Assembly (NCBI GenBank): GCA_018969615.1
Contig: JAGWYA010000001.1
Coordinates: forward strand, 118,567 to 169,140
Direction of reading: 5' to 3'
DNA from: Patescibacteria group bacterium
GTDB lineage: Bacteria; Patescibacteriota; Minisyncoccia; UBA6257; 02-FULL-45-10c
Length of the DNA stretch: 50,574 bases
Positions within the stretch are counted from its first letter, which is position 1; every line of letters starts with the position of its first letter. Both the position numbers and the translations under genes were made by a program. Below are positions 33,588 to 35,905 of this stretch, piece by piece. The notes under the pieces were generated by a model that searched no databases, had not been told where the DNA came from, and saw only the letters and a program-made list of their open reading frames with translations.

Positions 33588-33679
33588 TTCTTCTTTTACC
33601 CGACGAGGACTTTCGGTCCTGAGGAAGCTATCGGAGCGCTCTTCTTTTTTTATTCTACGACAAGGCGAGAACTGCTTTC

Positions 33680-33801
33680 GTTCGAGAAACTTTGAGCGCC
33701 GCTGCGCTCGGTATCGCTGAAAGCGATGCGGCGGCGCGAAACGTAAGAGACTGTTGCCGCAGGAGCAACAGTCTCTGGTTCTCGAACAAAAACAGTTCGA
33801 G
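33680..33801 (-). ncRNA. Candidate structured RNA / structured 3'UTR of fusA (cloverleaf-like)
   Basis: Nested perfect inverted repeats: GTTCGAGAA/TTCTCGAAC closing stem (33680-33688 / 33779-33787) enclosing hairpins 33694-33709, 33713-33727 and 33746-33776 (12-bp stem). Confidence 0.55.
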
Positions 33802-33802
33802 C

Positions 33803-35905
33803 TTATTTGCGGCCCTCAATGACCTGCTTCGCCACGTTCGCCGGAACCTCTTCGTAGTTCGAGAATTCCATCGTGAAGTTACCGCGGCCCTGGGACATCG
33901 AACGGAGCTTCGTCGCATAGCCGAACATTTCGGAGAGCGGCACTTTCGCGTCGATCACCTTGATATTGCCGCGATCGCTCATCGCTTCGATGCGTCCGCG
34001 CTTCGAGCTGATATCGCCGGTCACATCACCCATGAACTCTGCCGGAACGAGCGTCTGCACTTTCATGATCGGTTCGAGGATCACCGGCTTTGCGCGCTTG
34101 GCGCCTTCCTGTAATGCCATCGATGCCGCGATCTTGAACGCCGCTTCGGACGAGTCAACTTCGTGATACGAACCGTCATACAGCGTTACTTTTACGTCGT
34201 TCAATGGATAACCGGCGACCACACCTTTCTGCATCGCTTCAATGATACCTTTCTCGATCGGCTTAAAGAATTCCTGCGGGATCGCGCCTCCTTTGATCTC
34301 ATTGACGAACTCGAATCCTTTTCCGCTCTCCATCGGCTCAACGCGAATACGCACATGGCCGTACTGACCCTTGCCGCCTGACTGCTTGATATACTTTCCT
34401 TCCGCCTCCGCTTCGCCTTTGATCGTTTCACGGTATGCCACCTGCGGACGGCCGACGTTCGCTTCCACATTGAACTCGCGCTTCATGCGGTCCACGATAA
34501 TTTCCAAGTGCAATTCACCCATACCCCAGATGATCGTTTCGCCGGTCTCGGCGTCGCCGGTCACCCGGAAGGTCGGATCTTCATCAGCCAAACGGCGCAA
34601 CGCCAGACCCATCTTTTCCTGGTCGGCTTTCGTTTTCGGCTCAATGCGGAGCGAAATAACCGGTTCAGGGAATGTGATCTTTTCAAGGACGATCGGGTTC
34701 GCCTCATCGCAGAGCGTGTCGCCGGTCGTCGTGTCCTTCAAACCCACCAGTGCGCCAAGGTTGCCCGCGCCGATCTCTTCCACTTCTTCACGATGGTTCG
34801 CGTGCATACGCACGATACGGCTGACGCGTTCTTTTACGCCTTTCGTTGTGTTCAAAATGTAGGTTCCGCGCTTCAATGTTCCGGAATAGACACGGAAGAA
34901 GGTCAAGCTGCCCACAAACGGATCGGAAGCAACCTTGAACGCCAACGCCGCAAGCGGCGCATCGTCCTTCGGTTCGCGGGCAAGCTCGGCGCCCGTCTTC
35001 GGGTCGGTTCCTTTCGTCGGCGGAAGGTCCAGCGGCGACGGGAGATAATCCACGACGGCATCAAGCATGAGCTGCACGCCCTTGTTCTTCAATGCCGATC
35101 CGCACAGGACCGGAACAAGCGTGTTCGCCAGCGTCGCTTTGCGCAACACTTTCTTCAGCTTATCAACCTCAGGTTCTTTGCCGTCGAGATACTGCGCCAT
35201 CAGGTCATCATCCTGTTCCACGATCTTTTCCACCAAGGCATGGCGGCGCTTTTCCGCATCAGCCTTCAGTGATTCCGGAACTTCGCCTTCGATCACCTTC
35301 TCGCCCATATCGCCTTCAAAACGATAGGCTTTCATTTTCAAAAGATCCACCACGCCTTCAAAGGATCCTTCAAGGCCGATCGGGATCTGTACCGGGATCG
35401 CGTTCGGGGTCAACCGGTCCAAAATGGACTGGTAGCTGTTGTCGAAGGACGCACCCATGCGGTCCAATTTATTGATAAAGCACAAACGCGGAACGCTGTA
35501 TTCGTCCGCATAGCGCCAGTTCGTTTCAGACTGCGGCTCCACGCCGGACACGCCGTCGAAGATAACGCAGGCTCCGTCGAGCACACGCATAGAGCGCTTC
35601 ACCTCAACGGTAAAGTCGATGTGGCCCGGAGTATCGATCAGGTTGATGCGATATTCGTGCTGCTTGTCTCCGTTATACACCGTCGGCACCCAGAAGCAGG
35701 TCGTCGCGGCTGAGGTAATGGTAATACCGCGCTCGCGCTCCTGTTCCATCCAGTCCATAACGGTCTCCCCTTCGTGCACTTCACCGATCTTATGGGACAC
35801 GCCGGTATAAAAAAGAACACGCTCCGAAACGGTCGTCTTTCCTGCGTCGATATGGGCGATGATCCCGATATCTCGTGTATTTTCCAGTGAATATTCGCGT
35901 GCCAT
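33803..35905 (-). CDS. fusA: Elongation factor G
   Basis: [48 protein letters not shown]; full-length EF-G. Confidence 0.99.

Follow-up and report, generated by a model that had tools for sequence, protein, structure and literature searches.

Rickettsia palindromic elements (RPEs) and the protein-coding palindromes of Wolbachia are folded repeats of 105-150 bp, present in many copies in small-genome, host-dependent bacteria, both between genes and in frame within conserved genes, and the mobility of RPEs is unexplained (PMC2229807, PMC10969869); RPEs have been described as losing their repeat identity over time (PMC6649704). REPs are shorter palindromes of 20-40 bp (PMC3733652). Mitochondrial double-hairpin and other repetitive hairpin-forming elements (Allomyces, sponges) are mobile, contain several hairpins, in some cases have no flanking duplications, and lie in coding and rRNA genes without causing frameshifts (PMC2800124). 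The coding palindromes of nematomorphs are perfect inverted repeats without mismatch, for which template switching has been proposed (PMC6649704).

The structure following fusA in the window (the whole stretch of 50,574 nucleotides from a Patescibacteria group bacterium that was analysed) is a member of a dispersed family of repeats, and not a private EF-G switch. It is probable, if well short of certain, that this family is a dispersed, non-coding palindromic repeat of Patescibacteria that spreads as a non-autonomous mobile element of small size and is maintained as a DNA fold-back. The repeat is similar to RPEs in size class (100-150 bp), in its many copies per genome and in its in-frame presence in conserved genes (MnmA, cysteine desulfurase, PGM/PMM), a likeness drawn from behaviour; it differs in its host, which belongs to another phylum, in its three-way junction with fixed loop bases and in its locus-specific outer inverted repeats, and its stems change sequence yet stay Watson-Crick, whereas RPEs lose repeat identity (PMC6649704). 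With REPs and BIMEs (GTAG/CGTC tags) it shares dispersed intergenic palindromes, a short unpaired foot and proposed topological or 3'-end roles, but its foot reads CTCG/CTCGC instead of GTAG/CGTC and its core is branched and about 100 nt long; unlike in REP/RAYT systems, Y1/RAYT genes are not associated with the copies, and carriers need not hold a Y1 gene. The mitochondrial elements, compared here by description, are likewise multi-hairpin structures found also within coding genes without frameshift, but they are organellar, and those of sponges keep their stems and vary their loops, the reverse of the Patescibacteria repeat. Nematomorph palindromes share the perfect inverted repeats and template switching as a proposed origin; we know of no conserved core or dispersed family among them.

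The element and its immediate surroundings comprise the following features:

33665-33801, minus strand: whole element, foot to foot (CTCG ... CTCGC), from structure and homologues
33684-33783, minus strand: core, matched by covariance model R2 (79.8 bits, E-value 9.5e-21)
33798-33801, minus strand: 5' foot, the unpaired motif CTCG, on the strand that also carries the 3' foot (sequence and flank enrichment)
33779-33797, minus strand: outer stem P1, 5' arm (AACTGTTTTTGTTCGAGAA)
33746-33776, minus strand: P2 hairpin, 12 bp, conserved loop TCCTGCG
33738-33745, minus strand: conserved junction strand (TACGTTTC; family consensus TACGCCTC)
33696-33737, minus strand: P3/P4 arm, GCGCCGC/GCGGCGC around ATCGCT-TTC-AGCGAT, with the conserved ACCGAGC strand
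33670-33688, minus strand: outer stem P1, 3' arm (TTCTCGAACGAAAGCAGTT)
33665-33669, minus strand: 3' foot motif CTCGC (sequence and flank enrichment)
33803-35905, minus strand: fusA (EF-G), neighbouring gene, outside the element
33585-33560, minus strand: ordinary intrinsic terminator downstream, outside the element (read by eye)

The helices listed in the preliminary description of this region, placed right after the fusA stop on the minus strand, were all recovered: the closing helix (GTTCGAGAA, 33787-33779, with TTCTCGAAC, 33688-33680), P2 (AGAGACTGTTGC, 33776-33765, with GCAACAGTCTCT, 33757-33746, and the loop TCCTGCG between them) and the hairpin ATCGCT-TTC-AGCGAT (33727-33713). P2 of this copy is without the T bulge present in nearly all others. 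In the minimal-energy fold, which is common to the homologues, GCGCCGC (33737-33731) pairs with GCGGCGC (33702-33696) around the ATCGCT hairpin, and because this pairing encloses the hairpin the core is a three-way junction (P1 closing stem, P2 hairpin, P3/P4 arm) and not the cloverleaf of three hairpins first envisaged, of which GAGCGC-AGCG-GCGCTC exists only as an alternative. The 9-bp closing stem is real, but extends to about 19 bp, including two G-U pairs (AACTG...GTTCGAGAA with TTCTCGAAC...CAGTT). The preliminary description was right that the region is more than a simple terminator. Its fold energy exceeds chance by a wide margin (-68.5 kcal/mol over a 133-nt stretch, against -40.0 +/- 3.7 kcal/mol for dinucleotide shuffles; z = -7.7, with 0 of 200 shuffles as good), its homologues show massive compensatory change, and the separate canonical terminator noted about 100 nt downstream is present at 33585-33560. 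The proposed competing stem, a CTCGAAC/GTTCGAG hairpin, does exist, but enforcing it gives -57.5 instead of -73.8 kcal/mol, a cost of 16 kcal/mol, which makes two exclusive folds unlikely; a two-state switch was accordingly rejected. The core at 33684-33783 is the only copy detected in the window by model R2. A further stretch on the minus strand at 33621-33639 (GCGCTCCGATAGCTTCCTC) looks like the core's 3' end (GCTCCG-AG-TT-CC) and, judging from these letters, is perhaps a decayed half copy just 3' of the main one; the covariance model did not detect it.

A first covariance model, built from five copies and searched across 100 related genomes (one genome per species), identified the family in 53 of them, with a best E-value of 1.8e-10 or lower in all carriers but one (G018, 0.03). 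A second model, built from 96 copies and applied to 382 genomes across the phylum with stricter filters, at which weak matches were lost, found it in 24. By a more sensitive search, the genome of the window (G000) contains six clear copies and one weak copy (E-value 0.1), while others contain 33 (G007), 18 (G006 and G011), 17 (G004) and 13 (G002); within one family of genomes, copy number ranges from 0-1 up to 33. The core measures about 100 bp, or about 135 bp with the outer stem. A second copy in the same genome, on contig C11 and recovered by DNA search, has other stem letters and the same junction letters, and precedes a gene read as rpoB, in antisense orientation to it. Homologues with compensatory changes, on which the preliminary description had made its case depend, thus exist, among them the post-fusA regions of G001, G002, G004 and G008, where the same architecture is built from other stem sequences. 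Within the family of the window, five genomes of four genera (G000 included) carry a copy after fusA, and five genomes of four other genera (G003, G007, G010, G011 and G013) do not, G007 having its copies at other loci. Rfam covariance models, at gathering and relaxed thresholds, gave no family match and only tRNA and rRNA matches elsewhere, a G007 copy found no match in plasmid and phage collections, and no published description of the family was found in literature searches.

Several variants were observed in passing. In another lineage, Candidatus Zambryskibacteria, a distant copy lies just after fusA (L148:3660-3850), and its inverted repeats are nested (AAATTTCAAAATCTC...GAGATTTTGAAATCTC); a hot spot may exist at fusA 3' ends. 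Copies also occur in oppositely oriented pairs separated by 50-215 bp, at L273 and L295 (G101), G022 C2:47651-47917 and G390 C18:6370-6623. Two copies in the genome of the window (L085, L086) have lost the P4 hairpin and most of P3 and kept loops and feet, forming a shortened subtype.

Standard pairs filled 95.8% of the pair cells in an alignment of 93 distinct copies, compared with 59.4% after shuffling and 35-49% with slid partners, and double changes were present in 31 of 31 pairs (1002 double-change cells in total); as support for a mobile element these counts are to be read in the light of the alignment behind them, which had been fitted to the covariance model. Many loop and bulge bases are constant in 90-100% of copies. 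Over 96 copies, near-fixed unpaired bases include the C before P2 (96), the P2 bulge T (92), the junction T (95) and the T and CCG 3' of P3, and the P2 loop TCC-[AT]-GCG is kept at 88-94 and CCAAGC in the P3 arm at 68-93. Stems contain few wobble pairs: G-T(U) accounted for 20 of 2681 pairs (0.7%) in the family, compared with 48 of 921 (5.2%) in the tRNA stems of G007 (ARAGORN), a deficit for which the Fisher p-value (about 5e-15) is a guide only, the copies being non-independent. Departures from Watson-Crick pairing were A-C in 56 cases (37 sequences) and G-T in 20 (18 sequences), the opposite of what is expected for a folded sense RNA. Model fitting is an unlikely cause of the G-U deficit, since a covariance model tolerates G-U more than A-C. 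The scarcity of G-U points to upkeep at the DNA level and not the RNA level, and speaks against selection on an RNA fold. Near wobble-free pairing could derive from selection for a DNA fold, or from arm-to-arm copying by template switching. Such copying could not by itself preserve the conserved bulge and internal loops, so the structure must be under selection as well and is presumably also recognised by something.

The flanks and arms of the copies bear directly on mobility. Near-identical cores occupy separate loci in G002 (five) and G003 (two). The G002 subfamily (L105, L106 (twice), L107, L109, L110, L111) combines near-identical cores, in two versions, with about 40 nt of constant flank, and four of its copies are each enclosed by a perfect inverted repeat of 25-28 bp, with a sequence wholly different from locus to locus (AAACAGCTCTATACTATTTTTGATAC, GAAATCAGAAAGAGTATTTTCTTTAGAC, AACCACCAGAACCTATTTCAGCTGC and AGGAAAACCATGCTATTTCCGGACA); the repeat around L110 is imperfect. 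Similar nesting is seen in G003 (L058, L067) and in other families (L030, L038, L148). Across 96 copies, the median pairing score was 14 for a copy's own outer arms and 6 for swapped arms, and own-arm pairing exceeded the 95th percentile in 78. The same P2 and P3 arms reappear in other combinations from genus to genus (GGAGTCCGCTTGC, for example, in three genera with four P3 arms), and arms are therefore exchanged as units. Outer stems in most copies provide the terminal inverted repeats of a MITE. On the same strand and within 45 nt, CTCG was present in 28 of 95 5' flanks and 31 of 95 3' flanks (control, 9 of 95 in each case), with no enrichment of its reverse complement. Since the motif, found at both ends of many copies, is identical across unrelated loci and genomes, it probably belongs to the element; CTCGC was dropped as a target duplication for the same reason, and visual inspection of the flanks showed no direct duplication specific to a locus. 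An identity with attC sites was provisionally set aside on the basis of their consensus.

Copies also lie inside protein genes. In MnmA they are in frame in G002, G006, G008 and G015 (sense) and in G007 (antisense), always in the loop after ATGHYV, where the proteins of G010 and G003 are insert-free. G007 has further in-frame copies in a class-V aminotransferase (cysteine desulfurase) and a PGM/PMM protein; the cysteine desulfurase homologue of G004 is insert-free. A second repeat type, with GTTCTA/TAGAAC arms, was observed in frame at the MnmA and cysteine desulfurase loops where relatives carry the fold-back element or nothing (in G000/G001, L220 and L221 for MnmA, L212 and L214 for cysteine desulfurase).

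A mobile fold-back element could account for these observations as follows. One strand would fold, as a cruciform or when replication exposes it as single-stranded DNA, and its conserved loops and feet would be recognised by a host or mobile enzyme acting in trans. Snap-back template switching, with the folded 3' end copying its own flank, would create or repair the outer arms and give rise to site-specific inverted repeats and to stems without wobble pairs; for the locus-specific inverted repeats, such extension of a folded 3' end on its own flank is more likely than entry into existing palindromes. Once inserted, copies would be tolerated next to promoters, just behind stop codons, or in protein loops, where they are read in frame as peptides, and some may later have been kept for local use (insulation, supercoil absorption, 3'-end protection). 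Against the mobile element stands the failure of a survey limited to Y1 transposases to find a mobilising enzyme, and the sampling of one genome per species, so that no occupied and empty version of a locus is available within a species. The post-fusA copy with intact pairing in four genera could moreover mean local selection, or alternatively concerted evolution within the genome. A bolder version, which we put forward only tentatively, is that the family represents a new class of mobile DNA, whose loops and feet would be read on the folded single strand, whose insertion would copy the neighbourhood back on itself to produce the locus-specific inverted repeats, and whose arms would be exchangeable cassettes renewed by DNA copying and not by RNA selection.

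Local use, as boundary or topological elements, is a serious possibility for some copies. That the family as a whole consists of cis-acting boundary elements of DNA or RNA, once mobile and now retained by selection for a use at essential or highly expressed genes (as insulator, 3'-end protector or gyrase/supercoil site), seems rather unlikely. BIMEs in enterobacteria are proposed gyrase/supercoil sites. Copies often start 20-45 nt 3' of a stop codon. In the genus of the window, 5 of 10 examined copies adjoin a strong outward promoter (TTGAC..TATAAT-like) with a shared CGCCCCTTGAC or near variant; these promoters (beside L083, L054, L085, L086 and L059) serve 16S rRNA, rpoB, 23S rRNA (two) and one further unit, which together with the copy after fusA favours a boundary role, as does the retention of the fusA-site structure in four genera and a Zambryskibacteria genome. 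Copies in G007 adjoin ftsZ, secA, secY, gyrA, gyrB, rny, S1 and H+-pyrophosphatase, a list that also supports the boundary role, but housekeeping genes are the majority in a genome of 0.7-0.8 Mb. The orientation of G007 copies merely tracks that of genes: 21 of 28 copies run along the leading strand, and since 430 of 612 genes do so in like share, there is no separate replication-strand effect. Copies within coding genes mark no boundary, and a range of 0-1 to 33 copies within one family also weighs against this role.

Derivation from the end of an IS200/IS605- or REP/RAYT-type element, or a MITE-like derivative of one, with a Y1 HUH transposase moving it as single-stranded DNA, would fit the strand-specific CTCG foot, the conserved unpaired bases, the imperfect hairpins and the lack of a visible classical target duplication. 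It is nevertheless improbable: Y1 genes showed no association with the element (15 of 53 carriers, 12 of 47 non-carriers, p = 0.82), none was found in G000, G002 or G007, the last being the richest genome, the foot is unlike GTAG/CGTC, and no autonomous copy was seen. The least probable account, to which we give very little credence, is a structured RNA, either a small RNA or a riboregulator as first considered, that controls EF-G or works in trans. Although the fold on the fusA sense strand is strong, the covariation is extensive and five genomes carry the structure directly after fusA, copies lie mostly elsewhere (up to 33 in a genome, in either orientation, next to unrelated genes and also within coding sequences), five genomes have none after fusA, wobble pairs are near zero, A-C mismatches outnumber G-T, Rfam gave no match and the alternative fold is too costly.

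The structure after fusA adds to the described repeats a family absent from Rfam that roughly half of the relatives sampled in one Patescibacteria order carry, where abundant repeats were unexpected in streamlined genomes, and protein-tolerated palindromic insertions are now seen outside Rickettsiales. Its nearly wobble-free covariation is a warning that compensatory change is by itself no proof of a functional RNA. Near-identical cores set in inverted repeats that differ by locus provide a concrete and testable clue to the movement of small palindromic elements, RPEs among them.
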